From Angustibacter sp. Root456 (GTDB lineage: Bacteria > Actinomycetota > Actinomycetes > Actinomycetales > Angustibacteraceae): a DNA stretch of 64,000 nucleotides. A program made the position numbers and the translations under genes. The stretch spans positions 169,318 through 233,317 of the forward strand of contig NZ_LMER01000017.1 in assembly GCF_001426435.1 (NCBI RefSeq), in the 5' to 3' direction. Under the pieces are notes generated by a model. It ran no database searches. It had not been told where the DNA came from and saw only the letters and a program-made list of their open reading frames with translations. Below are positions 5,820-27,260 of the stretch, piece by piece. Positions within the stretch are counted from its first letter, which is position 1, and the number at the start of each line of letters is the position of its first letter.

Positions 5820-7249
5820 TGCCGGCCGTCACCGAAGCCCAGATGGCGATGCACCCGCTTGCCCTGCTGCCGGAGCTGCTGCTGCTGGTCGGTGCGCTGT
5901 CGGCGCTGGTGCTGGGCTCGTTCGTGCCGCGGCGGCGCCAGTGGCTGCCGCGGCTGGTGGCCGTGGCGGCCCTGCTGGCCTCCGGCGCGGCCGCCGGGGT
6001 GGGGCTCGCCGGGCCAGTGCGCCTCGTCTACTCCGGCACCTTCACCGTCGACACCGCAACGGGCGTCGTGCGACTGGTCGTCGCGGCGTCGACGCTGCTC
6101 GTCATCGGGCTCGGCGTGGACGAGCTCGCCGACGACGTCCGCGAGAGCGAGACCTACGCGCTGTTGCTCCTCTCGGCTGCCGGCGCCATGCTGCTCGCCG
6201 GCGCCAGCGACTTGCTCGTCCTCGCCGTCGCCTTCCTGCTCACCAGCGTGCCGCTCTACGGCCTCATCGGTCTGCCACGCACGCCGGGTGCTGGCGAGGC
6301 GGCGCTGAAGACCTACCTTCTCGGTGCTCTGTTCGGCATCGTCATGCTGCTCGGCGTCACGTTGCTCTACGGTCTCGCGGGCGGCACCACGTACGCCGAG
6401 CTGGGGCAGGGGCTGGGTCGGGCGCCGTCCGCGGCCCTCGCCGTCGGCGTGGTGGCTGTGCTCGGTGGGCTGCTCTTCGAGTCCGGCGCCGTCCCGGCCC
6501 ACTTCTGGGTCCCGGACGCCGCTCAGGGCACGGGTGCGACCGCGGCCGCGTTCCTGACCACCGTGCCCAAGGTGGGCGCCCTGCTGGCGACGTACCGGTT
6601 CGTCGACGCACTGCCCGGCCCCTTGCGCTGGTGGCTGCTCGTCGGCGTCGTGGCGGCCGCCAGCATGACGCTGGGCAACCTGGCTGCCTACTCCCAGCGC
6701 GACCCGCGGCGGCTGCTGGGGTGGTCGACGGTCAGCCAGGTCGGCTACCTGCTGCTGCCCGTGGCCGTGGCCGGCCACTCCGACCTTGCACGCCCAGCGC
6801 TGCTCGTCTACCTCGCGGCGTACGCCGTCACGAACCTCGGAGCGTTCGCTGTCACGGCCGCCTTCCCGCAGCGGCGTGATCTGTCCGCGTACCGGGGCCT
6901 CGGCCGGTCGCGCCCGGCACTGGCCGCCGCGTTGCTCGTCTGCCTGCTTGGCCTGGTCGGCACGCCGCCCACCGCCGTCTTCGCGGGCAAGCTCCTCGTC
7001 TCGGCGGCGGCCTGGGACGGTGGCGCGGCGTGGCTCGTCGTCGTGCTGGTGGTGAACTCCGTCGCCAGCCTGTTCTACTACCTGCGCTGGATCGCGCCGC
7101 TCTACGAGCGGGGCCTGGGAACCGAGCGGACAGCACGAGGCGCGTTCGTACCGCGCCCGTGGGCGGCGCGAGCAGCCGTCGCCGCCGCCGTCTGCTCCGT
7201 CGTCCTGGGTGTGCTGACCGGCCTGGCCTCGCGGCTCGCCGCCTCCTGA
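5819..7249 (+). CDS. nuoN: NuoN-like subunit with altered channel residues
   Basis: 476 residues, 13-14 helices, last gene of the operon and of NuoN length. PAHFWVPDAAQGTGATAAAF matches the PFHxWxPDxYEGAPTPVTAF signature, and QRDPRRLLGWSTVSQVGYLL the TM8 region. Two channel residues are changed: the TM5 Glu of the LGLELLSLPLY motif is Leu (L140 in VAFLLTSVPLY) and the TM7 Lys of FFKxSxVPFH is Glu (E221 in LLFESGAVPAH). The next Lys (K251, TTVPKVGAL) and the late Lys in FAGKLLVSA remain. GTG start 5819 shares a base with the NuoM stop. It ends three bases before the convergent multicopper oxidase gene. Confidence 0.87.
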   Translation: MPAVTEAQMAMHPLALLPELLLLVGALSALVLGSFVPRRRQWLPRLVAVAALLASGAAAGVGLAGPVRLVYSGTFTVDTATGVVRLVVAASTLLVIGLGVDELADDVRESETYALLLLSAAGAMLLAGASDLLVLAVAFLLTSVPLYGLIGLPRTPGAGEAALKTYLLGALFGIVMLLGVTLLYGLAGGTTYAELGQGLGRAPSAALAVGVVAVLGGLLFESGAVPAHFWVPDAAQGTGATAAAFLTTVPKVGALLATYRFVDALPGPLRWWLLVGVVAAASMTLGNLAAYSQRDPRRLLGWSTVSQVGYLLLPVAVAGHSDLARPALLVYLAAYAVTNLGAFAVTAAFPQRRDLSAYRGLGRSRPALAAALLVCLLGLVGTPPTAVFAGKLLVSAAAWDGGAAWLVVVLVVNSVASLFYYLRWIAPLYERGLGTERTARGAFVPRPWAARAAVAAAVCSVVLGVLTGLASRLAAS

Positions 7250-7252
7250 CCG

Positions 7253-8731
7253 CTACGTCGCCTGGTAGTCCAGTCGGGTCATCATGCCGGCCTCGGCGTG
7301 GTAGGCGTTGTGGCAGTGGACCATCCACCGGCCGGGGTTGTCGGCCAGAAGGTCGGCCTCCAGGCCGCCCATGGGTGGGACCAGGACGGTGTCTTTGCGT
7401 GGACCCCTACCGCCGGCGGGGCCGAGCTGGAAGGTGTGGCCGTGCACGTGCAGCGGGTGGCCCATCATCGAGTGGTTCGTGATGCGCAGACGCGTCATCT
7501 GCCCCTGGCGCACGGTGAGTGGTCGCGTCTTGTCGTAGGTGCGGCCGTTGATCGTCCAGACGTAGCCGCTCATGCTGCCGCTGAGCGCGACGTCCTGCCG
7601 TGAGTCCGGCGACCGGGCGGGCAGCGCAGACCCGGACGCGGCGGACAGATCAACGACGGTCAACGGCGGGGTGTCCAGCTCGGGCGGCCGGTATCCGGAT
7701 GGCGGCACCGGACCGGACGCGGTGCGCACGAGCGCCACGGCCTGCCCCTGCTTGCCCAACGGCTGTGCGGCGAGGGGGAACACGCCCGAGCCGAGGGTGA
7801 CGACGACGTCGTAGCGCTCCCCCATGCCCAGACGCAGGGACCCTGTCTGGGCCGGCTCCACCGGATACCCGTCGCTGTGCGTGACCGTCATCCGGTGAGC
7901 GCCGAGCGCCATGTCGAAGATGGTGTCCGCGGCGGCGTTGATCAACCGGATGCGCACGCGCTGGCCGGCCTTGGCCCGCAAGACGTCGGGATCGGTGGGT
8001 GCCCGGCCGTTGACGAGGTACAGCGGGTACCTGACGTCGCCACCGTCCCCGCCCATGCCCATGCCGCCCATGGAGCCGTCCCCCATGTCCATGCCACCCA
8101 TGGAGCCGCCGCCGCGCTTGAGGTCGGCGAAGATCTGCTCAGGCGTCGGGCCGACCCCGTCCGTCCAGTCGTCGAGCACCACGACCCACTCGGCGTCGTA
8201 GTCGCCGGGCTCGCTCGGGTCGTCGATGACGAACGGGGCGTACAGCCCGCGGTCGAGCTGCAGGCCGCTGTGCGGGTGGAACCAGTAGGTGCCGGGGTCG
8301 GGGACGGTGAAGTCGAAGTCGAACCGGCCACCGGCCGCGACCGGCTCGCTCGTCAGGTGCGGGACGCCGTCCATGTCGTTGCGGATGGCGAGCCCGTGCC
8401 AGTGGACGCTGGTCTCCTCAGGCAGCTCGTTGGTGAACGCCACCCGCACACGGTCACCCGCGGTGGCGCGCAGCATCGTGCCCGGGACCTGGTCGCCGTA
8501 GGCCCAGGTGTCGACGACTCGGCCGCCGAGGTCGACCTGCGCACGTCGTGCGTTCACCCGGTAGGTGCGCGTGCGCCCGCTGGTCGGTCGGGCCGACTCC
8601 GCAGCCGCGATGGCACCGGCTCCCACCGGCCGATCTCCGGAAGAGCACGCGGTCAGGGCTGCTGCGCCGCCGGCGCCCAGCAGCACCAAGCCGGTCAGCG
8701 CGGTACGCCGGGAGATCGGGGATGACGTCAT
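7253..8731 (-). CDS. Tat-exported multicopper oxidase lipoprotein (CueO/laccase type)
   Basis: 492 residues. The N-terminus has a twin-arginine signal (SRRTALTG), a hydrophobic stretch and a lipobox-like LTACSS, so the protein should be exported folded and probably anchored. All four copper motifs of three-domain multicopper oxidases are present: VHWHGLA near residue 107, WFHPHSGLQ near 149, HPLHVHGHTF near 423 and HCHNAYHAEAGM near 470, giving one type 1 and a trinuclear centre; the T1 axial ligand is Met. Residues about 206-231 form a Gly/Met-rich loop (about eight Met) like the Cu(I)-binding insert of CueO. Likely role: cuprous oxidase in copper tolerance; laccase-type oxidation of phenolics is the alternative. 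Divergent from the SHOCT-protein and two-component genes. Confidence 0.93.
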   Translation of the reverse strand: MTSSPISRRTALTGLVLLGAGGAAALTACSSGDRPVGAGAIAAAESARPTSGRTRTYRVNARRAQVDLGGRVVDTWAYGDQVPGTMLRATAGDRVRVAFTNELPEETSVHWHGLAIRNDMDGVPHLTSEPVAAGGRFDFDFTVPDPGTYWFHPHSGLQLDRGLYAPFVIDDPSEPGDYDAEWVVVLDDWTDGVGPTPEQIFADLKRGGGSMGGMDMGDGSMGGMGMGGDGGDVRYPLYLVNGRAPTDPDVLRAKAGQRVRIRLINAAADTIFDMALGAHRMTVTHSDGYPVEPAQTGSLRLGMGERYDVVVTLGSGVFPLAAQPLGKQGQAVALVRTASGPVPPSGYRPPELDTPPLTVVDLSAASGSALPARSPDSRQDVALSGSMSGYVWTINGRTYDKTRPLTVRQGQMTRLRITNHSMMGHPLHVHGHTFQLGPAGGRGPRKDTVLVPPMGGLEADLLADNPGRWMVHCHNAYHAEAGMMTRLDYQAT

Positions 8732-8771
8732 GAGCCAACCCTCGCCGCCGGAACCCTGGCGAACCGTGGTC

Positions 8772-8825
8772 GTTCCATGAAGGTTGGGTCAAGACCAACC
8801 AGGCTTGACCCAACCTTCATGGAAC
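8772..8825. repeat. Perfect 22-bp inverted repeat in the divergent promoter region
   Basis: Arms 8772-8793 and 8804-8825 are exact reverse complements (22 of 22), separated by a 10-base spacer (accaaccagg). Each arm reads outward as CTTGACCCAACC..., so each strand carries a TTGACC resembling a -35 box pointing toward the nearest gene: the oxidase on the left, the SHOCT protein on the right. The element lies 41 bases from the oxidase start and 64 bases from the SHOCT start. It could be a bidirectional operator, a transposon-derived miniature repeat, or a hairpin in RNA; position favours regulation. Confidence 0.8.
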
Positions 8826-8888
8826 CTCGCCCCTAGCAGCGGAACTGCACTGCGACGCTCGAGTCATCAACGAGGCCGGGAGGTCGAC

Positions 8889-9152
8889 ATGATGGGTTGG
8901 TACGGCGACGGCGGCTGGTGGGTCGGCATGATCGCCATGGTGCTGTTCTGGGTCGTGGTCATTGGCGCCATCGTCTGGGCCGTGGTCCGTCTGACGAACC
9001 GCCCGCAGCCACCGGCAACGCAGGCAGCACCGGCAGGTGACTCGCCGCGCGAGATTCTGGACCGTCGGTTCGCCGCCGGTGAGCTCAACGAACAGCAGTA
9101 CCTCGAGGCCCGGCGCCTGCTGGAGCTCGACCCGACGACCACGCAGCGCTGA
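8889..9152 (+). CDS. Small membrane protein with C-terminal SHOCT domain
   Basis: 87 residues: a Trp/Gly-rich N-terminus (MMGWYGDGGWW), one transmembrane helix (about residues 12-34), a Pro/Ala linker and a C-terminal SHOCT motif (EILDRRFAAGELNEQQYLEARRLL written across residues 55-78). SHOCT proteins are short, often paired with membrane or oligomerisation functions; no enzymatic role is known. Start is ATG 8889 or 8892; the GGGAGG at 8878-8883 is well spaced for either. It stands alone between the inverted repeat and the two-component system, and the context suggests membership of the same metal or envelope-stress response. Confidence 0.82.
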   Translation: MMGWYGDGGWWVGMIAMVLFWVVVIGAIVWAVVRLTNRPQPPATQAAPAGDSPREILDRRFAAGELNEQQYLEARRLLELDPTTTQR

Positions 9153-16245: not shown

Positions 16246-16755
16246 TCAGGGCGTCGCGGACTCGATGTGCAGCGTCAGCTTCTTCAGCAACCGGTTCAGC
16301 GTGGCGAGCTCGCGGGGCGAGAGGACGTCGGCCAGCTGGTTCTCGGCCGCGCCCCGCAGGTGCATGGCCCGGCGCCAGATGTCGACACCGGCTCGGGTCG
16401 CCTCGACGTCGACGCGCCGGCGGTCGCCCGGGCTCGGCGTCCGCTTGAGCCAGCCCTTGCGCTCCATGGCATCCAGCCGTCCGGTCATGCCGGCGTTCGA
16501 CGTGTGCGTGGCCTCCGCGAGGTCGCCGGGTGAGGCCTTGCCGGGGGTGTCGCGGATCATCAACGCGTGCAGGGTGGCGTACTCGAAGTCCTGCAGGCCG
16601 ACCTGCGCGACCGCCTCCTTCGTCGTGTCGTCGAACCACCGCACGACGCGCATCAGCCGGACGGCAGCGGCCTCGACGGCGTCGTCGAACGGCTCATCGA
16701 GCACCCAGTGGTCGCGCCAGCGCTCGACGTGCAGGTCGGCGGCGTCGCGAGGCAT
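16246..16755 (-). CDS. MarR-family transcriptional regulator
   Basis: 169 residues from ATG 16755. A winged helix-turn-helix occupies about residues 50-125: DFEYATLHALMIRDTPGKAS, then the recognition region DLAEATHTSNAGMTGRLDAM and wing RKGWLKRTPSPGDRRRVDVE, with DxRxxxV typical of MarR. Flanking helices would form the dimer interface. No Shine-Dalgarno precedes either ATG (16755, 16767); a TATGCT -10 at 16768-16763 places transcription start at about 16756, so the mRNA is probably leaderless and 16755 is favoured. It is divergent from an MFS exporter and presumably represses both. Confidence 0.9.
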   Translation of the reverse strand: MPRDAADLHVERWRDHWVLDEPFDDAVEAAAVRLMRVVRWFDDTTKEAVAQVGLQDFEYATLHALMIRDTPGKASPGDLAEATHTSNAGMTGRLDAMERKGWLKRTPSPGDRRRVDVEATRAGVDIWRRAMHLRGAAENQLADVLSPRELATLNRLLKKLTLHIESATP

Positions 16756-16777
16756 GCCGGAAAGCATACGACGAAAC

Positions 16778-16817: not shown

Positions 16818-18053
16818 GTGACCGACACTTCCTCGCGTCCCCTGCGCTTCTCGAGCTACCGATGGCTCCTGTCCGGAACGACGGTCAACACGCTGGGGAA
16901 CAGCATCGCGCCGGTCGCCATCGCCTTCGCGGTGCTGGACGTCGGCGGGACGGTCACTCAGCTGGGGCTGGTCGTCGCGACCTACGCGCTGGCCGACATC
17001 GCTGCTGTGGTGGGCGGCGGCGTGCTGGGCGACCGGCTCCCCCGCCAGGTCATGATGCGCGGAACCAACGCGGCCGCGGGCGTCGTCCAGGCCGCCCTCG
17101 CGGTGAGTTTGCTGACCGGCGTCGCCTCGGTGTGGCTCATCGCCGTCGCCGGCGCCGTGAACGGCGCGCTCGGCTCGCTCGGCGGCCCCAGCGCGCAGGC
17201 CATCACGCCGCAGACGGTGCCAGGCGACGTCCTGAGGCAGGCGATCACGCTGCGACGCCTGGCGCAGAACGCCGCCAGCATCCTCGGGTTCGCAGGCGCC
17301 GGCCTCGTCGTGGCCTGGGTCGGCTCGGGCGGGGCGGTGCTGGTCGACGCGGCGACCTTCGTGGTCGCGGCCGCCTGCTTCACGCGCATCTCGGTGCCGC
17401 CGGTCACCGCGCCCGCCGCGCGGCGGCACCCGTTCGCCGAGGCCGTCGAGGGCCTGCGCGAGGTGCTGCGGCGCTCGTGGTTGTGGGCCGGCATCGCCAT
17501 GGCGCTCGTCTACCACCTGTTCTACGGCGGGGCCCAGGGCGTGCTGGGACCGGTGGTGGTGGGCGAGGGCATCAGCCGCCCGGCGTGGGGGTACGCGCTG
17601 TCGGCGATGATGCTCGGCTTCGTCAGCGGTGGTCTGCTCAGCCTGGCGTGGAAGCCACGCCGCATCCTCCTGGTCGGCGAGCTGTTCCTGATGCTCACCA
17701 TCTGCTTCCCCCTGGCCATGGCCTGGAGCACGTCGCTGTGGCTGGTCGTCGCCGGCGCGTTCCTGCACGGCTTCGGGCTGGAGATCTTCAGCGTCGGCTG
17801 GGACCTCGCGATCCAGGAGAACGTGCCGGAGCACCTGCTGGCGCGCGTGTACTCGTTCGACCAGCTCGGCTCGTTCCTCGCGCGCCCGGTCGGGCTGGCG
17901 CTCACCGGCCCACTCGCCGCCGCAGTCGGTGCGCGCGAGTGGCTCGTCGTCGTCGCGGTGGCGATGCTCGTCGCCGAGGCGGTGCCCTTCGCGGTGCGGG
18001 AGGTGCGGCGGCTGGAACGGCGCTCCCTGCCCGACGACGTTCCGGTGACCTGA
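16818..18053 (+). CDS. MFS transporter, probable drug exporter
   Basis: 411 residues with about 12 transmembrane helices. The A-like motif GGGVLGDRLPRQVMMR lies between helices 2 and 3, and the fold resembles the MFS_3/enterobactin-exporter-like group (LRFSSYRWLLSGTTVNTLGN at the start, VGWDLAIQENVPEHLLARVYS late). GTG 16818 coincides with the predicted transcription start, so translation is probably leaderless. Divergent pairing with a MarR regulator and a shared operator suggests induction by a toxic or phenolic ligand. Could export the product of the chorismate-derived cluster next door, but that cluster has its own MFS gene. Confidence 0.88.
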   Translation: MTDTSSRPLRFSSYRWLLSGTTVNTLGNSIAPVAIAFAVLDVGGTVTQLGLVVATYALADIAAVVGGGVLGDRLPRQVMMRGTNAAAGVVQAALAVSLLTGVASVWLIAVAGAVNGALGSLGGPSAQAITPQTVPGDVLRQAITLRRLAQNAASILGFAGAGLVVAWVGSGGAVLVDAATFVVAAACFTRISVPPVTAPAARRHPFAEAVEGLREVLRRSWLWAGIAMALVYHLFYGGAQGVLGPVVVGEGISRPAWGYALSAMMLGFVSGGLLSLAWKPRRILLVGELFLMLTICFPLAMAWSTSLWLVVAGAFLHGFGLEIFSVGWDLAIQENVPEHLLARVYSFDQLGSFLARPVGLALTGPLAAAVGAREWLVVVAVAMLVAEAVPFAVREVRRLERRSLPDDVPVT

Positions 18054-18093: not shown

Positions 18094-18390
18094 ATGACGG
18101 CTGGATCGTTCCCTGACCTCGCCTCGGTGCGAGCAGCGCTCGACGAGCTCGACGGCCGCGTGGTCGAGCTGCTCGTCGAGCGCCAGCACCTGGTGGCCCA
18201 GGCCGCGGCGTTCAAGCACACCGACTCCGAGGTGCAGGCACCGCAGCGCGTCGCAGCGGTCGTGCGCCGGGCCCGCCAGCTGGCCGAGCAGCACGGCGGG
18301 TCCGGCGACCTGGTCGAACAGGTCTACACCGCGCTCGTCGCCGCGTTCGTCGCGCACGAGCGGGCCGCCCTGCGCGCCAGCACGACCTGA
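18094..18390 (+). CDS. Free-standing AroQ-type chorismate mutase
   Basis: 98 residues, all-helical, the length of a monofunctional AroQ chorismate mutase domain. ALDELDGRVVELLVERQHLV gives the N-terminal helix with the Arg of LxxxDxxxxxLxxxR, AAAFKHTDSEVQAPQRVAAV the second, with Lys of the active site and the PxR, and the third helix runs AEQHGGSGDLVEQVYTALVA. It would convert chorismate to prephenate (or an amino-deoxychorismate analogue). The 3' end overlaps the tail of the convergent MFS gene by 67 bases. It faces the anthranilate-synthase-like operon, suggesting a shared pathway, though a housekeeping role is possible. Confidence 0.85.
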   Translation: MTAGSFPDLASVRAALDELDGRVVELLVERQHLVAQAAAFKHTDSEVQAPQRVAAVVRRARQLAEQHGGSGDLVEQVYTALVAAFVAHERAALRASTT

Positions 18391-19538
18391 GCGGCGGCCA
18401 CCAGCCACGCCACCAGCACGAGGGCACCACCGACGTACCCGAGCTCCGGTGCCGAGACGTGTCCGAGGGCGAGGCCGCCGCAGGCCCCGGCCGCCCCGAT
18501 CCCGAGGAACACCGCGGCGCTGTTCAGGCCTATCGCCACCTGCGCAGCCTGCGGAGCGATGGCCACGAGCCGGTGCTGCTGCGGCACCGTCAAGCTCCAG
18601 GCCGAGAGCCCCCACACCGCTAGCACCGCAGCGGTTCCGGCCACCGACCGCGTCGCGATGGGCACCGCCAGGAGCGCTGCCGCGAACACGACCAGCCCGC
18701 CCAGGAGCACGACGTCGGGCCCGATCCGGTCGGTCAGCCGGCCGCCCAGCGCGTTACCGACCACACCGCAGGCCCCGAACACCAGCAGCAGCCAGGTGAG
18801 GCCCGTGCCCGTCACCCCGGCGTTCACCGCCACGACCTGCCCCACGTAGGTGTAGACCGTGAAGCCACCGAGGAACAGCAGCACCGTCGTGGTGATCACC
18901 GCCAGCACCCGCCGGTCGGCGAGCACCGCCAGCCGGGCCCGCAGCGTCGCGATCGGGGGCGTCGGCAGCGCCGGCAGCCGCGCGGCCAGCACCGCGAGAG
19001 CGACCCCGGCGGTGGCGGCGACGAGGCCGAAGCTGCCCTGCCAGCCCACCGCGTTGCCGACGTAGGTGCCGACCGGCACGCCCAGCACGGTCGCCGCGGT
19101 CGTGCCCCCGAGCACGACCGCCAGCGCGCGCCCGCGCCGTTCGGGAGCCACCAGCGTGACGGCCGCCGCGGCCGCCGCGGGCGTGTAGAGGGCCGCGCCG
19201 GCGGCAGCCAGCACCCTCGTCGCCAGCAGGACGGCGAACCCCGGCGCCAGCGCGGACCCGACGTTCGCCAGCGCGAAGAGCGCGAGCGCGCTGAGCAGCA
19301 GCGTCCGTCGCGCGACCCGTGCGGTCGCGGCGGCCAGCACCGGCGCGAGCACGCCGAACGTCACGGCGAACACCGTGACAAGCTGGCCCGCCTCGGCCAG
19401 CGACACGTGCAGGTCCGCGCCCAGACGGCGCAGCACGCCCGCGACGACGAAGGTGTCGGTGCCGATCGCGAACGACCCCAAGGCCAGGACGGCGACCAGG
19501 CGCAGCACGCTGCGGTCATCGCTTCGGTGGGCGCTCAT
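18324..19538 (-). CDS. DHA1-type MFS exporter (AraJ-like), last gene of the cluster operon
   Basis: 404 residues, 12 helices. Starts MSAHRSDDRSVLRLVAVLAL; helix 1 GSFAIGTDTFVVAGVLRRLG and helix 4-5 motif C-like region GGTTAATVLGVPVGTYVG place it with AraJ/DHA1 sugar or drug efflux pumps. Its ATG overlaps the amidohydrolase stop by four bases, so it is co-translated with the cluster genes and is the natural candidate to export the pathway product. The C-terminal 22 codons lie opposite the chorismate mutase 3' end. Confidence 0.9.
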   Translation of the reverse strand: MSAHRSDDRSVLRLVAVLALGSFAIGTDTFVVAGVLRRLGADLHVSLAEAGQLVTVFAVTFGVLAPVLAAATARVARRTLLLSALALFALANVGSALAPGFAVLLATRVLAAAGAALYTPAAAAAAVTLVAPERRGRALAVVLGGTTAATVLGVPVGTYVGNAVGWQGSFGLVAATAGVALAVLAARLPALPTPPIATLRARLAVLADRRVLAVITTTVLLFLGGFTVYTYVGQVVAVNAGVTGTGLTWLLLVFGACGVVGNALGGRLTDRIGPDVVLLGGLVVFAAALLAVPIATRSVAGTAAVLAVWGLSAWSLTVPQQHRLVAIAPQAAQVAIGLNSAAVFLGIGAAGACGGLALGHVSAPELGYVGGALVLVAWLVAAAQVVLARRAARSCATNAATSAV

Positions 19539-20812
19539 GCCGCCACCTGCGCGCCGCTCGCCGTGCGATCGCGGACGACGCGTCCGTCGAGGAGGACCAT
19601 CTCGATGTCGTCCGGGCGCGAGAGCACCGTGATGTCTTGCGCCGGGTCGCCGTCGGTCACGACGAGGTCGGCGAGACGGCCGGCCTCGACGATGCCGGCG
19701 GTGTCGCCGCGCCCCGCCAGCGCCGCGCCGTTCGCCGTGGCCCAGGTGAGCACCGTCGCCGGGTCGATACCTGCCAGCTCGACGTACGCCGCGAGCTCAC
19801 GGGCGTAGGTGCCGTGCGGCGTCCACGCGAAGCCGAAGTCGTCGCCCGCGACGATCTTGATGCCCAGCTCGACGGCGCGCGGCAGCATCCAGATCGTGTT
19901 GTCGATCTCGGCCTGGTAGTCGAGCTTCTCGAGGTACTCGGGCGTCTTGCCGTGCTCCGCTCCGTGCAGCAGGAGCTGTCGCGGTTGGTAGAGACTCGGG
20001 ACAACGTAGATGCCCTGTGCCGCAATGGCTTGCAGCGCTTCCTCGTCGGCGTACGACGCGTGGTCGATGACGTCGACCTCGGCGCGGATCGCGTTGCGGA
20101 TGCCCTCGACACCTCGGGAGTGGGCGCGCACCATCACGCCCCGGGGCCGTGCCGTGCGCACGACTGCCTGCAGCTCCTCGAGCGTGTAGAGGATCTCGTC
20201 GGACTTCGCGTTCGGGTAGGTGTCGTCGCCGGACGAGAACGTCTTGATGATCTGCGCGCCCTGGTCGATCTCGATGGTGGTGCGCTCGACCATCTCGGCC
20301 ACCGTGTCGACGATCGGCATGAGGTCGGCCGGGAACCGCCCCGCCACCTCAGGGTTGCGGCGCTCCGGGGGTGCCGACACCATCAGGTCGCGACTGCAGG
20401 CGGTGATGCGCGGGCCCTCGATCCACCCATCGGCGATGGCCCGCCTCAGCACCATGTCGAGGCCAGAGACCGACCCCGCCCCGACCAGCCCGGTGTAGCC
20501 CAGCTGCACCATCGCGGCGGCGTTGCGCGCCGCTCGCAGGGTGAGCTCGGGCAGCGAGTACTTGAACATCGTGTCGCGAGCGGTGACGACGTCGATGTAG
20601 GCGATGTGGCTGTGGCCCAACGTCATCCCGGGCATGACCGTACGGCCGCTCAGGTGGCGCACGTCCAGGTCGGGGTCGTCGACAGGTGCGTCGGCGGCCG
20701 GGAGCACGGCCGAGATCGTCGTGCCCTCGACCAGCACGCTCTGGTGCGGGACGGACGCACGGCCGCGGCCCTCCTGGACCGCGACGTCGTGCAGCAGGAT
20801 GCGGGAGGTCAT
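19535..20812 (-). CDS. Amidohydrolase, imidazolonepropionase/prolidase-like
   Basis: 425 residues from ATG 20812. A metal-dependent TIM-barrel amidohydrolase: HxH in MTLGHSHIAYID, the bridging Lys in AQIIKTFSSGDD, His in MVRAHSRGVEG, His in VDVIDHASYADEE and Asp in IVAGDDFGFAW, with a beta-sandwich made from both termini (VLLDGRVVRDR at the end). Substrates of this clade are small amides, lactams or peptides. Start overlaps the stop of the prephenate-dehydratase-like gene (ATGA), and its stop overlaps the exporter start, so it is firmly in the operon. It could hydrolyse a cyclic or amide intermediate, or confer self-resistance. Confidence 0.9.
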   Translation of the reverse strand: MTSRILLHDVAVQEGRGRASVPHQSVLVEGTTISAVLPAADAPVDDPDLDVRHLSGRTVMPGMTLGHSHIAYIDVVTARDTMFKYSLPELTLRAARNAAAMVQLGYTGLVGAGSVSGLDMVLRRAIADGWIEGPRITACSRDLMVSAPPERRNPEVAGRFPADLMPIVDTVAEMVERTTIEIDQGAQIIKTFSSGDDTYPNAKSDEILYTLEELQAVVRTARPRGVMVRAHSRGVEGIRNAIRAEVDVIDHASYADEEALQAIAAQGIYVVPSLYQPRQLLLHGAEHGKTPEYLEKLDYQAEIDNTIWMLPRAVELGIKIVAGDDFGFAWTPHGTYARELAAYVELAGIDPATVLTWATANGAALAGRGDTAGIVEAGRLADLVVTDGDPAQDITVLSRPDDIEMVLLDGRVVRDRTASGAQVAA

Positions 20813-21492
20813 GTGGGTTCCTCTGGGTGGGGGTCGGGAGTGGGATCGGTGAGGTTGCGGTGTTCGCTCGGTGCACGCGCGAACACCAGCCAGACGATGT
20901 CGACGCCCGGCCGGCAGCTCAGCCACACCAGGCCGGCCTCCCTGCGGCTGGGTTCGTTCGTCACGGCGACGTCGGCGGCTCCGCGCCGCACCAGCTCGGC
21001 GGCGTGCCGCGTGGAGCGGGCCGCCACGCGCACCACCTCGCGGTGGGCCAGCGGCGGTGGGACGAGGCCGGCGTACAGGTGGTCGACCTCAGCCATCGCC
21101 GCCACCCGAAGAGGTTCAGGTGCCGCCGGCAGCCGGCGAGCGGCGAGCCCGTACGGCGGTGTGCTGCGCGCGAAGTGGAACAGCAGCCGCAGGTCGTCGT
21201 GCCAGTGGAACGCCGTCGCACCGCGGTAGGCGCTGGGCACGAGCGCGAGGCACGACGCGTCGGCCGCGGCTCGCTCGAGGACGACGTCGAACGTGTCGTA
21301 CAGCTCGAGCGGCAGCGGCGGGCCACCGCCAGCCTCGACGAGCCGCGTCTGGAGGTGGCGCGCTGCGTCGTGACTGCTCGTGCCGGCTGGCCCGAGGGTG
21401 ATGACGCGCGCGCCCTCCGTGTCGGCCCTGCGGCACAGCTCGTCCCACCCAGCCGGCTCACGCGCGGTCACGGCGGGGGTCTGCTCGACCAT
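20809..21492 (-). CDS. Prephenate dehydratase-like protein lacking the TRF motif (BacA-like)
   Basis: 227 residues. VITLGPAGTSSHDAARHLQT is the start of a prephenate-dehydratase-type fold (PheA: LGPxGTFSHxAA) and LVPSAYRGATAFHW matches its VPIENSxxG position, but with AYRG in place of the substrate-binding ENS. The essential Thr-Arg-Phe of dehydratases is absent; the domain ends ADVAVTNEPSRREAGLVWLS. Loss of TRF and a GTSS start are what I recall of BacA-type prephenate decarboxylases, so a non-aromatising reaction on prephenate or an analogue is plausible. No ACT domain. Lies between the adenylating enzyme and the amidohydrolase in the operon. Confidence 0.72.
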   Translation of the reverse strand: MVEQTPAVTAREPAGWDELCRRADTEGARVITLGPAGTSSHDAARHLQTRLVEAGGGPPLPLELYDTFDVVLERAAADASCLALVPSAYRGATAFHWHDDLRLLFHFARSTPPYGLAARRLPAAPEPLRVAAMAEVDHLYAGLVPPPLAHREVVRVAARSTRHAAELVRRGAADVAVTNEPSRREAGLVWLSCRPGVDIVWLVFARAPSEHRNLTDPTPDPHPEEPT

Positions 21493-21502
21493 CCGCCGGC
21501 CC

Positions 21503-22921
21503 TCAGGTGTCGTAGCCGCGACGGGTGGCCATCGCGGCCGCCACCTCTTCCTCGTGGTCGCGCGCGCGCCGTCGGTCGAGGATCCGAGCCGCCTTCCAGC
21601 TCACGAACGCCCCGGTGCTGGTGATCTGGTCGACCTCGTCGACGAACTCGACCTCGCAGCGCACCCCCAGACGCTCGGCGAAGCGCGTGACGACGCCGGA
21701 CGCGACCTGCTCGTCACGAGCTCCCGGCAGCATCTCCAGGCGCACCGTCACGACGTCCGCGCCGTCGACGCGGTCGATGACGACCTGGAAGCCGACGCAC
21801 CGCGTGACGCCGTCGAGCACGGCCTCCTCGAGGTCGCTGGCGAGCAGCCGCGACCCCCCGAGCTCGATGCGGTCGAGCACGCGGCCCACCACCTCCAGCC
21901 GGTCGCCGGGCAGCTCGCAGTCGCAGTCGCTATCGGACAGCCGGACGACGTCGCCCGTGCGGTATCGCACGAGTGGCTTGATGCCGGCGACGACCGTCGT
22001 GACGCACAGCTCGCCGGTTCCGCGGGAACCGAGCGACTCGCCGGTGTCGGGGTCGAGCACCTCGGCGATGTAGTTCGGCGCCGACAGGTGCATGGCACCG
22101 TTGCGACAGGCCGTGCCCATGACGAACGCCTCCTGCGAGCCGTACAGGATGTTGTAGGTGGTGGTGCCCCACACGCTGTCGATGGTGGCCGCGAGCGCGG
22201 GGGTGCACATCTCGCCGGTGAGGAAGAACAGCTTCACCGCGAAGTCCTTCTCCAGGTCGTAGCCGTGGAACCGCGCTGCCTTGGCGAGGTTGAGGCACAC
22301 GCCGGGCGTGCAGCAGATGACCTCCAGCCGCAGGTCCTTCATGAGCTGCAGCGCCTTGGCGAAGCCCATGACCGGCGAGTACGGCCAGATCTTGGCGTTG
22401 CACGAGCCGACGTTGCGGGCGACGTCGCCGAGCGTGTCGCCGAAGCTGTGCACCTCGGTGGGCCCCATGAGCCCGATCGCCGGCCGCTGGTCGCCGAAGT
22501 GGTGGTCGAAGATGCTGGCCCACGACGCCGTCACGTGCGCGTTGCTGGCGATCACCTCCTTGCCGTCGCGCGGGCACGGCGTGGCCGCGCCGGTCGTACC
22601 GGTGGTCTCGTAGAAGAACACGGCGTCATGCACGTCGCCGGACAGCACGTCGAGCAGGTGGGTGCGCAGGTCCTGCTTGGTCGTGAAGGGCAGGGCGGTG
22701 AGGTCGTCGAGGGTGAGCGCCGCCGCGTCGACGCCGGCGAGGTGGTCCGCGTAGAAGGGCGAGCGGGACTGCACGTGTCCCACGACGCGGCGCAGCGCCG
22801 TCTCGTACCACTGCGTCCAGTCCGCCGCGCTGAGCTCGCGGGCGTAGTACCGCTCGGTGAAGGGCAGGAACTCCGCGAGGAACTCCCGGTGCCGCTCGTC
22901 GGTGGGCAGCCACATGTCCAT
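21503..22921 (-). CDS. Adenylate-forming enzyme, PaaK/EhpF family
   Basis: 472 residues, ANL superfamily but of the short phenylacetate-CoA-ligase type. Motifs: ATP loop FYETTGTTGAATPCP, acidic ATP-binding YGSQEA, the YRTGDVVRL hinge region and the C-terminal STGAFVSWKAARI with a terminal Lys. This family activates aryl acids (phenylacetate, griseoluteate in EhpF, coumarate-like acids) as AMP esters for CoA transfer or reduction. In this operon anthranilate or another chorismate-derived acid is the obvious substrate. Starts MDMWLPTDER at 22921 with no strong ribosome site; 31 bases follow the flavoprotein stop. Confidence 0.88.
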   Translation of the reverse strand: MDMWLPTDERHREFLAEFLPFTERYYARELSAADWTQWYETALRRVVGHVQSRSPFYADHLAGVDAAALTLDDLTALPFTTKQDLRTHLLDVLSGDVHDAVFFYETTGTTGAATPCPRDGKEVIASNAHVTASWASIFDHHFGDQRPAIGLMGPTEVHSFGDTLGDVARNVGSCNAKIWPYSPVMGFAKALQLMKDLRLEVICCTPGVCLNLAKAARFHGYDLEKDFAVKLFFLTGEMCTPALAATIDSVWGTTTYNILYGSQEAFVMGTACRNGAMHLSAPNYIAEVLDPDTGESLGSRGTGELCVTTVVAGIKPLVRYRTGDVVRLSDSDCDCELPGDRLEVVGRVLDRIELGGSRLLASDLEEAVLDGVTRCVGFQVVIDRVDGADVVTVRLEMLPGARDEQVASGVVTRFAERLGVRCEVEFVDEVDQITSTGAFVSWKAARILDRRRARDHEEEVAAAMATRRGYDT

Positions 22922-22952
22922 CAGGCGTCGCTTTCGGGTCGGGGTCGGTGGG

Positions 22953-23624
22953 TCAGAACCGAAGCGCGGACCGCTCGGTGCCCGCCGGTCGGGGAAGGGA
23001 CTCGCCGGTCACCGTGAGGTGGCGGCGCAGGAGCAGGATCATCTGGACCATCCGGGTGACCATGTGGGTCACGGCGGCCAGCCCCTCGGCGTCCGTCATC
23101 GCCTCACCGGGCGCTCCGCCGTGGACGACGGCCGGGTACCCGCTGCCGACGAGGATCATCCGGTTGAGCAGCACGTTGTGCACCAGCTGGGCGTGGACGT
23201 CGGTGTGCCCGTACCGGCGTCCGGTGACGATGACGCCGCCGACCTTGTTGGTGAGCGGGCGCTCGAAACGCAGGTAGCCGACCCCCGCCCGCTCGACGAA
23301 GCGCTGCATGATGCTCGACATGCCGTAGCCGTGCACGGGGCAGGCGTAGATCACGCCGTCGGCTGCCCGCATCCGGCGCACCACCGCCGCGACGTCGTCG
23401 TCGAGGGCGCACGGGACGCGACGGCTGTTGCAGTCACCGCAGGCCGCGCAGTCGTCGATGGTGTGGCGACGCAGGTCGACGACCTCGACGCCCGCGCCCA
23501 GCTCCCGCGCCACTCGCGTGACGTGCTTCAGGACCTGCTCGGTGTTGCCACCGACCCGCTCCGAGCCGTTCAGAGCGACGATCGTGGGACGCCACGGCTC
23601 AGCACCGACGCCGTTCACCGTCAT
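22953..23624 (-). CDS. NADPH-dependent FMN reductase-type iron-sulfur flavoprotein
   Basis: 223 residues. Flavodoxin-like fold opening with IVALNGSERVGGNTEQVLKH (FMN phosphate loop), followed by CAACGDCNSRRVPC, a C-x2-C-x2-C-x6-C cluster typical of iron-sulfur flavoproteins that bind [4Fe-4S] at the dimer interface. GVIYACPVHGYGMSSIMQRF and GGVIVTGRRYGHTDVHAQLV are further FMN-site pieces. It probably supplies electrons to, or itself performs, a reduction in the pathway. Same operon, 26 bases after the glutamine amidotransferase gene. Confidence 0.87.
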   Translation of the reverse strand: MTVNGVGAEPWRPTIVALNGSERVGGNTEQVLKHVTRVARELGAGVEVVDLRRHTIDDCAACGDCNSRRVPCALDDDVAAVVRRMRAADGVIYACPVHGYGMSSIMQRFVERAGVGYLRFERPLTNKVGGVIVTGRRYGHTDVHAQLVHNVLLNRMILVGSGYPAVVHGGAPGEAMTDAEGLAAVTHMVTRMVQMILLLRRHLTVTGESLPRPAGTERSALRF

Positions 23625-23650
23625 GCGATCCCCCCTTGCCGACCGCGTGC

Positions 23651-24241
23651 TCAGCGCGCGCCGGGTGAGCCGATGGCACCGTGCAGGAACGAGCGGAAGA
23701 TCTCCAGCCCCAGCTCGGTCGTGATGCTCTCGGGGTGGAACTGCACGGATTCCAGTGGCAGCTCGCGGTGCCGCAGTCCCATGACGTAACCGTCGTCGCA
23801 CGAGCGCGCGGTGACTTCGAGCTCGCCCGGCACGGTGCCCTCCTCGACCACGAGCGAGTGGTAGCGCGTCGCGAGGAATCCCTGCGGCTGCTGGGCGAAG
23901 GCACCACGACCGTCGTGCTCGATGCGGCTGGTCTTGCCGTGCATGAGGTGCTGGGCCGGGCTGACGCGGGCGCCGTAGGCCACGCCCAGCGCCTGGTGCC
24001 CGAGGCACACGCCGAAGATCGGCAGGCTGGTGGCGAACGCGCGCACCAGCTCCACGTGGCCGGAGTCGACCGGGTGGCCGGGCCCGGGGCCGAGCACCAG
24101 CAGGTCGGGAGCCTCGGCGCGCACCCGCTCGACCGTCGCGGCGTCGGAGCGGATCACGACCGGGTTCGCTCGCAGCGTGCGCAGGTACTGGTCGATGATG
24201 TGGACGAAGCTGTCGTAGGCGTCGACGACGACCGTCTTCAC
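23651..24241 (-). CDS. Glutamine amidotransferase subunit (TrpG/PabA type)
   Basis: 196 residues from GTG 24241, which overlaps the stop of the synthase subunit (GTGA). Class I amidotransferase: DAYDSFVHIIDQYL at the start, LGPGPGHPVDSG oxyanion region, nucleophile Cys in IFGVCLGHQALGVAYG and catalytic His-x-Glu in VQFHPESITTELG. It releases ammonia from glutamine for the adjacent chorismate-using subunit. DAYDSFVHII, rather than the usual DNYDSFTxNL, marks it as a divergent copy, consistent with a secondary-metabolic paralogue rather than the housekeeping TrpG. Confidence 0.92.
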   Translation of the reverse strand: MKTVVVDAYDSFVHIIDQYLRTLRANPVVIRSDAATVERVRAEAPDLLVLGPGPGHPVDSGHVELVRAFATSLPIFGVCLGHQALGVAYGARVSPAQHLMHGKTSRIEHDGRGAFAQQPQGFLATRYHSLVVEEGTVPGELEVTARSCDDGYVMGLRHRELPLESVQFHPESITTELGLEIFRSFLHGAIGSPGAR

Positions 24242-25722
24242 GTGAGCTCCTCGCCTGTCACGGCCCAGTAGGCCGCGCTCAGCTTCGACAGGGTCTCGCG
24301 CCACTCGCCGTCCGGCGTCGAGTCGGCCACGACGCCGGCCGAGGCGCGGGTGCGGTACGTCGTGCCGCACCGGAAGAGCGTGCGCAGGCACAGCCCGAGG
24401 TTGACGTAGCCACCGAAGCCGATGAGCCCGAAGGCGCCGGCGTAGAGCTCGCGGCGGCGGTCCTCGAGGCCTTCGATGATCTCCATCGCTCGGATCTTGG
24501 GGGCACCGGTCATCGTGCCGGCGGGGAACGTCGCCGCCACGACGTCCTGCGCGTCGACGCCCGGCACGACGCGAGCGGTCACGTTGGACACGAGGTGGAA
24601 CACGTGCGAGTAGTCCTCGACCACCATCAGCTCGTCGACGTCGATGCTGTCGACCTGCGCGACCCGGCCGAGGTCGTTGCGGCACAGGTCGACCAGCATC
24701 GTGTGCTCGGCGATCTCCTTCTCGTCGCCGCGCAGCCGGCGTCGGGCGTCGTGGTCGCGCGCCTCGTCGCCGCTGCGCCGCACCGTCCCGGCGATGGGGC
24801 GCATCGTCATCAGGTCGCCCTCGATCCGCAGGAACAGCTCGGGGCTGGCGGAGATCATCGTCAGGTCACCGACGGGCACGATGGCCATGTACGGCGACGG
24901 GTTGCGTTCACGCAGCCTGCGGTAGACGGTGAGCTCGTCGACGGCGGACTCGACGGTCAGCTCGTGACCGAGCTGCACCTGGTAGATGTCGCCGATCGCG
25001 ATGTGGCCCAGGGCCGTGGTGACGTCGTCATGGAACCGCTCCGGCGTCGTGGAGTCGGCGACGGACTCGGGCGGGGGCAGGTGCGTCGAGCCGCTGCCCG
25101 GCGCCGGCGCAGGTGACGCGAGCTGCTGCAGCAGCGACTCCACGTCGACCTCGGGCAGACCCTCCCCCTCGACGAGGGTCAGGGTGACCTCGCCGCCCGC
25201 CAGGTCGAACACCGCGACACCGCGGTGCACCACCAGCGTGAGGTCAGGTGCGGCGTCCGGACGGGCCGGGATCGCCCGGGGCAGCCGCTCGACGTGCTGC
25301 ACCACGTCGTAGCCGTAGATCGCCAGGTACCCGAAGCCGAAGGCGCGGGCATCGAGGTCGAACGCACCGAACACGCGCTCGACGGCCCGCGGGACGTCGA
25401 AGAGCGAGCACGTGGCCGTCAGCCAGAGCTCGCCGGACCGCTCGGCCGCGCCCGCCTCGCCCAGCGCCGCGCGCACAGCGCGCACCAGCACCTCAGTGCC
25501 TGCGACGTCGATGCGCTCGCCGTGCACCGAGACCGTCAGGACGGGGTCGAACCCGACGAGCGCCGAGCGCCGATCGGCTGTCGGGCCGGCGAGCGACTCG
25601 AGCAAGAAGACCGCCCGCTCGCCCCAGCTGGCGCGCAGGGCCAGGTAGGCGGCGTACGGGTCGCCCGCAACGGCTCGGTGGCGACGCAGCGACAGCTCGA
25701 GCGCGGATCGGTCCCCAGGCAC
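24238..25722 (-). CDS. Chorismate-utilising synthase subunit, anthranilate-synthase-like (TrpE/PabB family)
   Basis: 494 residues. N-terminal domain carries AVFLLESLAGPTADRRS, the LLES element of tryptophan-sensitive anthranilate synthases. The catalytic chorismate-binding domain has GDIYQVQLGHELTV, NPSPYMAIVPVG, SPELFLRIEG, RPIAGTVRRSG, EHTMLVDLCRNDLGRV and the end block FPAGTMTGAPKIRAMEIIEG. The A in PIAGT is the anthranilate/ADIC-type residue; aminodeoxychorismate synthases of the PabB type have Lys there. Predicted product: anthranilate or 2-amino-2-deoxyisochorismate with the adjacent amidotransferase. GTG 25722 is the start; there is no Shine-Dalgarno and a palindrome lies 7 bases upstream. 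First gene of the cluster operon. Confidence 0.88.
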   Translation of the reverse strand: MPGDRSALELSLRRHRAVAGDPYAAYLALRASWGERAVFLLESLAGPTADRRSALVGFDPVLTVSVHGERIDVAGTEVLVRAVRAALGEAGAAERSGELWLTATCSLFDVPRAVERVFGAFDLDARAFGFGYLAIYGYDVVQHVERLPRAIPARPDAAPDLTLVVHRGVAVFDLAGGEVTLTLVEGEGLPEVDVESLLQQLASPAPAPGSGSTHLPPPESVADSTTPERFHDDVTTALGHIAIGDIYQVQLGHELTVESAVDELTVYRRLRERNPSPYMAIVPVGDLTMISASPELFLRIEGDLMTMRPIAGTVRRSGDEARDHDARRRLRGDEKEIAEHTMLVDLCRNDLGRVAQVDSIDVDELMVVEDYSHVFHLVSNVTARVVPGVDAQDVVAATFPAGTMTGAPKIRAMEIIEGLEDRRRELYAGAFGLIGFGGYVNLGLCLRTLFRCGTTYRTRASAGVVADSTPDGEWRETLSKLSAAYWAVTGEELT

Positions 25723-25778: not shown

Positions 25779-27260
25779 TCAGGCCAGCACCGGCAGCCCG
25801 GGGGGCGCACCGCGCTCCACCAGACCCAGCACCGCGTCGAGATCAAGGTGCTCCTCGACCGCGTCGGCCAGGGCGTCGATGCGCTGCTCGCGCGCGGCCG
25901 CGAAGCCCACCGACCCGGGCGTGAACGGCCGCGCCGATGAGCCTGCCACCTGTGCGAGCCAGGCCCGGCGCAGCGCGTCGCCCTCGAGGCTGCCGTGCCA
26001 CATGGTGCCGTAGACCGCACCGCGGCGGGCCCCACCGAGGAAGGGCTCGTCGGCACCGAGCCGCACCCGGCCGTGGTGGATCTCGTACCCGCCGGCCACG
26101 ACGCCGAGCGCCTCACCACGCGGCAGCCGCAACACCTTCTCGCGCTCGAACCGAGTGGTGACGTCGAGCAGCCCCAGGCCCTGAGCGCACGCACCCGCCG
26201 GGCCCTCGACGCCGTCGGGGTCGCTGACCTCGCGACCCAGCATCTGAAAGCCCCCGCAGATGCCCAGCACGGCGCCCCCGCGCGCGGTGTGCGCGGTCAC
26301 CGCGTCGGCCAGCCCCCGGGCACGCAGCCACGCCAGGTCGTCCAGGGTCGCGCGCGTGCCGGGCAGCACCACGACGTCGGCCGAGGCCAGCCCGCGGGCG
26401 TCGCGCACGAACTCGACGTCGACGTCGGGCTCCAGGCACAGCGCGTCGACGTCGGTGAAGTTGCTGACGCGGGGCAGGACGACGACGGCGACACGCAGCC
26501 GCTGCGTGGCCGCGGCTGGGTCCGGGCGCGGCCGCGACTCCAGCGCGAGGGCGTCCTCGGAGTCGAGCCACAGGTCGTGCAGCCACGGCAGGACGCCGAG
26601 CACCCGCCGGCCGGTGAGCTGCTCGATCGAGTCCAGACCCGGTTGCAGCAACGAGACGTCGCCGCGGAACTTGTTGATGACGAAGCCGCTCAGCAGCGCC
26701 TGGTCGTCGGCGTCGAGCAGCGCGACGGTGCCGTAGAGGGCGGCGAACACGCCGCCGCGGTCGATGTCGCCCACGACCAGCGTCGGGATGTCGGCGTGGC
26801 GCGCCAGGCCCATGTTGACGTAGTCGTGGCGGCGCAGGTTGATCTCCGCCGGGCTTCCCGCGCCCTCGCACACGACGACGTCGTAGCGGCTGCGCAGGTC
26901 GTCGAAGGCCGCGAAGGCGGCCCGCGCCAGCTCGGCGCGGCCCGCCACGAAGTCGCGCGCCTCGAGCACCCCGTGCGGGCGGCCCATGACCACCACGTGA
27001 CTGCGCTCGTCGCTGCCCGGCTTGAGCAGCACCGGGTTCATCGCGGCCTCGGGCTCGGCCCCTGCCGCGATTGCTTGCACCCACTGCGCACGCCCGATCT
27101 CGGCGCCGTCGGCGGTGACCATCGAGTTGTTCGACATGTTCTGCGCCTTGAACGGCGCGACCCGCAGCCCGCGCCGTCGCAGGGCGCGGCACAGTGCGGT
27201 CGTCACCACGGTCTTGCCGGCGTCCGACGTCGTGCCGGCGACCAGCAGCGTGCCGGTCAT
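25779..27260 (-). CDS. cobQ: Cobyric acid synthase, glutamine-hydrolysing
   Basis: 493 residues, full length. N-terminal dethiobiotin-synthetase-like ATPase: LLVAGTTSDAGKTVVTTALC (P-loop), VAPFKAQNMSNNSMVTADG, VVCEGAGSPAEINL and the GDIDRGGVFAALYGT site. C-terminal amidotransferase domain from about 255: ADVVVLPGTRATLDDL, nucleophile Cys in AVLGICGGFQMLGREV and His in VYGTMWHGSLEGD. It amidates four side chains of adenosylcobyrinic acid in cobalamin synthesis. The upstream thioesterase gene stops two bases before its ATG, so the two are co-transcribed; no cobalamin riboswitch is visible. Relation to the cluster downstream is probably only positional. Confidence 0.96.
   Translation of the reverse strand: MTGTLLVAGTTSDAGKTVVTTALCRALRRRGLRVAPFKAQNMSNNSMVTADGAEIGRAQWVQAIAAGAEPEAAMNPVLLKPGSDERSHVVVMGRPHGVLEARDFVAGRAELARAAFAAFDDLRSRYDVVVCEGAGSPAEINLRRHDYVNMGLARHADIPTLVVGDIDRGGVFAALYGTVALLDADDQALLSGFVINKFRGDVSLLQPGLDSIEQLTGRRVLGVLPWLHDLWLDSEDALALESRPRPDPAAATQRLRVAVVVLPRVSNFTDVDALCLEPDVDVEFVRDARGLASADVVVLPGTRATLDDLAWLRARGLADAVTAHTARGGAVLGICGGFQMLGREVSDPDGVEGPAGACAQGLGLLDVTTRFEREKVLRLPRGEALGVVAGGYEIHHGRVRLGADEPFLGGARRGAVYGTMWHGSLEGDALRRAWLAQVAGSSARPFTPGSVGFAAAREQRIDALADAVEEHLDLDAVLGLVERGAPPGLPVLA

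Follow-up and report, generated by a model that had tools for sequence, protein, structure and literature searches.

The genome of Angustibacter sp. Root456 carries what appears, from sequence comparison, to be a horizontally acquired operon of the benzoxazolinate superfamily that would make a benzoxazolinate-type bicycle from chorismate, a reading to which we assign a probability of roughly 70%. It lies in a stretch of 64 000 nucleotides (the window; contig NZ_LMER01000017.1, positions 169 318 to 233 317 of the forward strand) of an assembly comprising 20 contigs and estimated to be 100% complete. Benzoxazolinate is rare, and gives the antitumour agent C-1027 its DNA and apoprotein binding. 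A previous annotation made from the letters of the window (hereafter the original prediction) had proposed a cluster for a chorismate-derived specialised metabolite, and this proposal stands: those tryptophan, phenylalanine and folate enzymes that were looked for have separate copies in the host, and the genes stay together in other genomes.

As that prediction had described, seven minus-strand genes running from 25722 down to 18324 form one operon in which neighbours overlap by 4 bases or lie no more than 31 bases apart (−4, +26, +31, +10, −4 and −4 bases in operon order after start correction), while a gene of the AroQ family converges on them and overlaps the 3′ end of the exporter gene by 67 bases. 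The eight genes are as follows:

24238..25722, minus strand: TrpE-like synthase, similar to SgcD-type synthases of 2-amino-2-deoxyisochorismate (ADIC); operon gene 1 (PF00425, 268 bits)
23651..24241, minus strand: glutamine amidotransferase of the TrpG/PabA type; starts at GTG and overlaps the synthase gene by 4 bases (TIGR00566, 179 bits, above the cut-off)
22953..23624, minus strand: Fe-S/FMN flavoprotein, predicted SgcG-type ADIC dehydrogenase (PF03358); gap of 26 bases
21503..22921, minus strand: PaaK-like acyl-AMP ligase, predicted ring closer of the XsbC/NatL2 type; gap of 31 bases
20809..21492, minus strand: BacA-like protein with a prephenate dehydratase fold; gap of 10 bases
19535..20812, minus strand: amidohydrolase with an intact binuclear metal site (PF01979); 4-base overlap
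18324..19538, minus strand: predicted MFS exporter, last operon gene (PF07690); 4-base overlap
18094..18390, plus strand: predicted PchB-like AroQ pericyclase, convergent with the exporter gene and a member of the cluster

By homology, the synthase, amidotransferase, flavoprotein and ligase are the benzoxazolinate cassette of the enediyne C-1027, whose plasmid-borne run reads sgcG, a phenylacetate-CoA-ligase family gene, sgcD and an amidotransferase gene. The synthase is about 49–52% identical to SgcD against 37% to the TrpE of its own genome, groups in a tree with SgcD and apart from the host TrpE, PabB and MenF, and carries the motif PIAGT, shared with the host TrpE (the host PabB has PIKGT). 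By its sequence it falls among the SgcD/ADIC-synthase-type homologues of the cassette (PMC10098953). The amidotransferase is 64% identical to that encoded next to sgcD. With the flavoprotein as query, a protein search of plasmids found the SgcG annotated in Streptomyces globisporus C-1027, which is 56.9% identical; the CxxCGxCN...C cluster of the window protein is conserved, as expected of an SgcG-type FMN/Fe-S dehydrogenase. The ligase shares 48–50% identity with plasmid homologues and with the ligase encoded between sgcG and sgcD. A tree joins it at 100/100 to the sgc, Pseudomonas-plasmid and BacA-associated ligases and keeps it apart from the second AMP ligases that those plasmids encode. 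Residue-level alignment with 6siw, a PaaK-like ligase that we take to be NatL2, shows a complete Zn tetrad in the window protein (C272-H278-C333-C335), which also has a C-terminal stretch with a conserved SWK. A Cys-His-Cys-Cys tetrad of this kind is given as diagnostic for XsbC-type ligases (PMC10098953), to which the window protein would belong by its tetrad and, in a rough comparison from whose alignment XsbC itself was absent, by its C-terminal extension. The tetrad, absent from C-1027-type ligases, may not be essential family-wide.

The original prediction had seen no match to named pathways, although four of the seven genes correspond to this cassette, and the nearest known chemistry, that of C-1027 and benzobactin, went unnamed in it. 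It had also cast the flavoprotein as a reductase and the ligase as EhpF-like; given the benzoxazolinate match, the former would be expected to oxidise ADIC and the latter to form a lactam ring intramolecularly. SgcD is reported to make ADIC and SgcG to oxidise it to 3-O-enolpyruvoylanthranilate (OPA), and the ligase XsbC, together with a dehydrogenase and an ADIC synthase, is reported to be required for, and to yield, benzoxazolinate in E. coli (PMC10098953). By homology to these enzymes, tested in C-1027 and Xenorhabdus, we infer that the synthase and amidotransferase would convert chorismate and glutamine into ADIC with the pyruvate retained, that the Fe-S/FMN protein would dehydrogenate ADIC to OPA, and that the ligase would use ATP to adenylate the enolpyruvyl carboxylate, attack by the ring amine then giving the bicycle as an intramolecular lactam. 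Three further steps are less certain, being suggested only by the families of the enzymes and by their co-conservation: the PchB-like pericyclase may, with the BacA-like protein, act on an ADIC- or isochorismate-type intermediate or supply a second unit, the amidohydrolase may trim or release an amide, and the MFS protein may export the product.

The AroQ protein, previously taken for a chorismate mutase feeding a prephenate branch, looks instead like an enzyme of the PchB type whose substrate would resemble isochorismate. Its best NCBIfam match is the isochorismate lyase PRK07075 (63.6 bits, under the cut-off of 126), its PDB matches are to PchB only, and it fits the Val55/Ala51 pattern of PchB. 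The mutase Glu at position 52 of the E. coli chorismate mutase (EcCM) is replaced by Val, a departure from the AroQ mutase pattern; this Val (PchB position 55) is present in all eight cluster AroQ enzymes, against Glu in all seven other CM_2 proteins of the order. Its presence is suggestive of a PchB-like substrate, as the Glu of the E. coli enzyme contacts the 4-OH of chorismate and the Val of PchB is placed against C4 of isochorismate, although Val occupies the mutase Glu position in about 8% of AroQ proteins (PMC12329711). Because of that frequency and the score under the cut-off, lyase activity is regarded as putative and the enzyme is not classed as PchB. ADIC has no 4-OH, and is the likely substrate rather than isochorismate. 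The gene is the sole CM_2 gene of the genome; an AroH-type mutase found elsewhere led us to reject it as the only chorismate mutase of the host. Since the genus mate has AroH and no CM_2, the window copy can be regarded as accessory.

The fifth operon gene had been labelled both prephenate-dehydratase-like and BacA-like. It is present as such, but its product scores 14.5 bits against Pfam PDT (prephenate dehydratase), under the cut-off of 25.2, and it is the second label that is borne out: judged by sequence and fold, the protein belongs to a BacA-like branch that has the PDT fold, lacks the TRF motif and is related to annotated BacA, with a putative prephenate decarboxylase activity. The catalytic TRF of prephenate dehydratases reads IVW here and the conserved LGPxGTS motif is present, while identities are 27–31% to proteins annotated as BacA or PDT-domain and 38–50% to homologues from related clusters. 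The best PDB matches of its AlphaFold model (pLDDT 86.6, pTM 0.75) are mostly prephenate dehydratases, with GqqA, a PDT-like quorum-quenching acylase, also among them. A BacA homologue elsewhere adjoins cupin, SDR and aminotransferase genes. A further set, consisting of Dabb, in some cases DUF2000, a PaaK-like ligase, an aminotransferase, a BacA-like protein and an ornithine-cyclodeaminase-like protein, sits in Streptomyces clusters of nonribosomal peptide synthetase (NRPS) and polyketide synthase (PKS) genes and on a Pseudomonas aeruginosa plasmid, with a similar set in Pantoea.

The amidohydrolase retains all its metal ligands (H67, H69, K190, H231, H251 and D324), which are invariant across ten loci including that of the window, and arginine carboxypeptidase and ochratoxinase are among its closest relatives of solved structure; as a query against plasmids it gave no match. 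The exporter has the Cmx/CmrA efflux family as its best NCBIfam match, under the cut-off, and is 46–50% identical to its counterparts in related clusters where these were recovered whole.

Beyond the cluster, the genome encodes three further chorismate-binding enzymes (TrpE-, PabB- and isochorismate-synthase-like) and a separate prephenate dehydratase with a strong PDT score (172 bits), and because these functions have genes of their own the cluster can be assigned to specialised metabolism. Neither scattering of the genes in relatives nor sole copies for tryptophan, phenylalanine or folate synthesis, the two outcomes that would have spoken against the original prediction, was found; the set is co-located and separate copies exist.

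Nine other actinobacterial loci hold all seven genes together (ten loci with the window), and since they are kept together in nine other genomes the grouping is more than chance. A search for the seven-gene order in other actinomycetes, as the original prediction had suggested, recovered the set but only part of the order, with ligase, BacA-like and amidohydrolase genes fixed in 10/10 loci and the synthase pair, exporter and flavoprotein genes shifting. The PchB-like gene is found in eight of the ten loci, window counted, and the other two (G314 and G787) end at a contig edge. Among 395 class-level genomes an SgcG homologue was detected in three besides the window's own, all three with the full seven-gene set. 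Seven of the 396 genomes of the family of G210 (G210 included) have the amidohydrolase at E < 1e-90, in every case inside the same gene set. Only the window's own genome has the cluster in its order (1/396 genomes), as also in the phylum sample (1/397). This sporadic distribution suggests horizontal gain of the cluster. Synteny with the genus mate aligned only the CobQ region over a whole gene, and an empty site could not be shown; a scan of a contig collection with the flavoprotein returned only a 28% match, in a Clostridia bin, and viral contigs searched with the ligase gave no match.

The window cluster comes near to a minimal form. Of the seven family-level loci six, together with G225, carry additional B3/B4, ATP-grasp ligase, second MFS and TrpB-like genes, and where the contig extends far enough these seven larger loci also hold a small cupin and a UbiD decarboxylase. 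In this larger type the gene content suggests a pathway to a non-protein amino acid, with a means of self-protection. Its members (G210, G225, L060–L063 and L065) have MocR-type regulators at their ends, and their B3/B4 protein resembles the editing domain of phenylalanyl-tRNA synthetase (PheRS). G575 (L064) represents a short form, upstream of which lie a B3/B4 gene and an oxidoreductase gene; its synthase, amidotransferase, ligase and MFS genes (3211–9125) seem truncated or fragmented in the simple gene calls, reflecting either sequencing errors or decay. At the G314 locus an NRPS protein of A-methyltransferase-T-TE architecture and an SDR are encoded.

Several observations weigh against benzoxazolinate as the product. 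The flavoprotein tree is poorly resolved, and identities of 53–57% leave room for a related but different substrate; the sgc ligases of the C-1027 type lack the Zn tetrad; and the cluster in its minimal form shows no clear partner unit to which benzoxazolinate could be attached. In addition, some members of the ligase family are paired with a BacA-like protein and an aminotransferase in neighbourhoods that have no annotated ADIC synthase or SgcG, and the window ligase could therefore act in a BacA branch instead. Benzoxazolinate nevertheless remains the preferred product, given a flavoprotein of the SgcG type and a synthase of the SgcD type.

Among the other readings, it is possible, if tentative, that the eight-gene core represents an undescribed chorismate branch, in which ADIC would pass through the PchB-like and BacA-like enzymes and the OPA/benzoxazolinate machinery to a new scaffold, the Streptomyces-type version adding UbiD/TrpB-like chemistry to reach an amino acid that requires self-protection by the PheRS-editing-like B3/B4 protein. 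Somewhat less probable is a version of the fourth step with two branches, the AroQ and BacA-like enzymes taking chorismate through prephenate to dihydro-4-hydroxyphenylpyruvate, as in bacilysin, for combination with a benzoxazolinate unit. A BacA-like protein and a chorismate-mutase-family gene do share the cluster, the BacA homologue beside cupin, SDR and aminotransferase genes offers a parallel, and in clusters of the G210 type a small cupin and an ATP-grasp ligase are among the additional genes; the AroQ enzyme, however, lacks the mutase-typical Glu, and the window operon has no cupin, SDR, aminotransferase or coupling enzyme.

We consider it improbable that the pathway bypasses benzoxazolinate altogether, with the PchB-like enzyme carrying out a Claisen-type conversion of ADIC to amino-isoprephenate, the BacA-like protein decarboxylating or isomerising this product, and the flavoprotein and ligase acting next. 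Such a route would accommodate the contrast between Val55 in the cluster enzymes (8/8) and Glu in the other CM_2 proteins of the order (7/7), the co-conservation of the AroQ and BacA-like genes with an ADIC synthase, and the ligase/BacA-like pairing where no ADIC genes are annotated, and its layout would resemble that of PapA-PapB-PapC for the 4-amino series. Yet the flavoprotein and ligase are about as similar to the C-1027 proteins as enzymes of identical function should be, the chemistry of BacA depends on the quaternary carboxylate of prephenate, a group missing from isoprephenate, and the core set contains no aminotransferase. The TrpE, TrpG, AroQ and PDT-fold families all belong to primary metabolism, but a duplication of housekeeping genes for tryptophan, phenylalanine or folate was rejected in view of the host's own chorismate-binding, PDT and AroH-type genes and because neither the genus mate nor any other sampled member of the order has the cluster. 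A phenazine, chloramphenicol or aurachin type was likewise rejected, as no supporting genes were seen.

The surroundings of the cluster comprise genes for a cobyric acid synthase, an acyl-CoA thioesterase family protein, an MFS transporter, a MarR protein and an alpha-amylase. Two of these may belong with it:

16818..18053, plus strand: second MFS transporter (PF07690), 40 bases upstream of the PchB-like gene
16246..16767, minus strand: MarR-family regulator (PF01047), divergent from the MFS/PchB-like pair

The transporter is a possible cluster member, with no BLAST match at 1e-6 within the related loci examined, and the MarR-family protein is, on position alone, a possible cluster regulator. 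The cobQ-type gene (25779–27260), 56 bases upstream of the operon and beside the thioesterase-family gene, has a homologue in the genus mate that is 64% identical and has different neighbours; we rejected it as an operon member, as it is not present in the other clusters. No enediyne PKS or chromophore genes were detected among the cluster neighbours, which sets the cluster apart from an enediyne system of the C-1027 type, and a promoter and terminator scan found nothing.

The cluster type is thus conserved and apparently an undescribed variant, in which a benzoxazolinate core is joined by three co-conserved enzymes (BacA-like, amidohydrolase and PchB-like); no literature on this gene combination was found in open-access papers. 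In a published survey, homologues of C-1027 and ashimide are reported from Actinobacteria, and benzobactin clusters from other phyla (PMC10098953). The actinobacterial type described here would allow a test of whether AroQ and BacA-like enzymes can act on an aminated isochorismate, and gives the search for products a defined target.

Compared with known systems, the C-1027 cassette of S. globisporus (sgcG, ligase, sgcD and amidotransferase) has the same four families in adjacent genes, at 48–64% identity; the window differs in lacking enediyne genes around them, in adding the BacA-like, amidohydrolase and PchB-like genes, and in a ligase that retains the Zn tetrad missing from the sgc ligase. 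The xsb/benzobactin clusters of Xenorhabdus and Pseudomonas share the SgcG-type dehydrogenase and the PaaK-family acyl-AMP ligase, with a Zn tetrad reported for XsbC (PMC10098953), but hold NRPS genes, which the window operon does not, and xsb borrows the ADIC synthase of the phenazine pathway, whereas the window has its own synthase pair and three extra families. With bacilysin-type BacA clusters the window shares a BacA-like PDT-fold protein without TRF, though identity to BacA/PDT-domain proteins is only 27–31% and the BacB-type cupin, SDR and aminotransferase partners are missing from the operon. The isochorismate-pyruvate lyase PchB has in common the AroQ fold and the Ala51/Val55 pattern, while no salicylate siderophore context was seen around the window gene. 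Plasmids of Pseudomonas coronafaciens and Pseudomonas syringae pv. actinidiae carry a benzoxazolinate-like cassette with an SgcG-like protein at 40%. The conjugative plasmid cassette of the P. syringae group (TrpE, TrpG, ligase and SgcG-like) comprises the same four core families, accompanied instead by an acetyltransferase or hypothetical protein, an iron-containing redox enzyme, an EamA transporter and an alpha/beta hydrolase.

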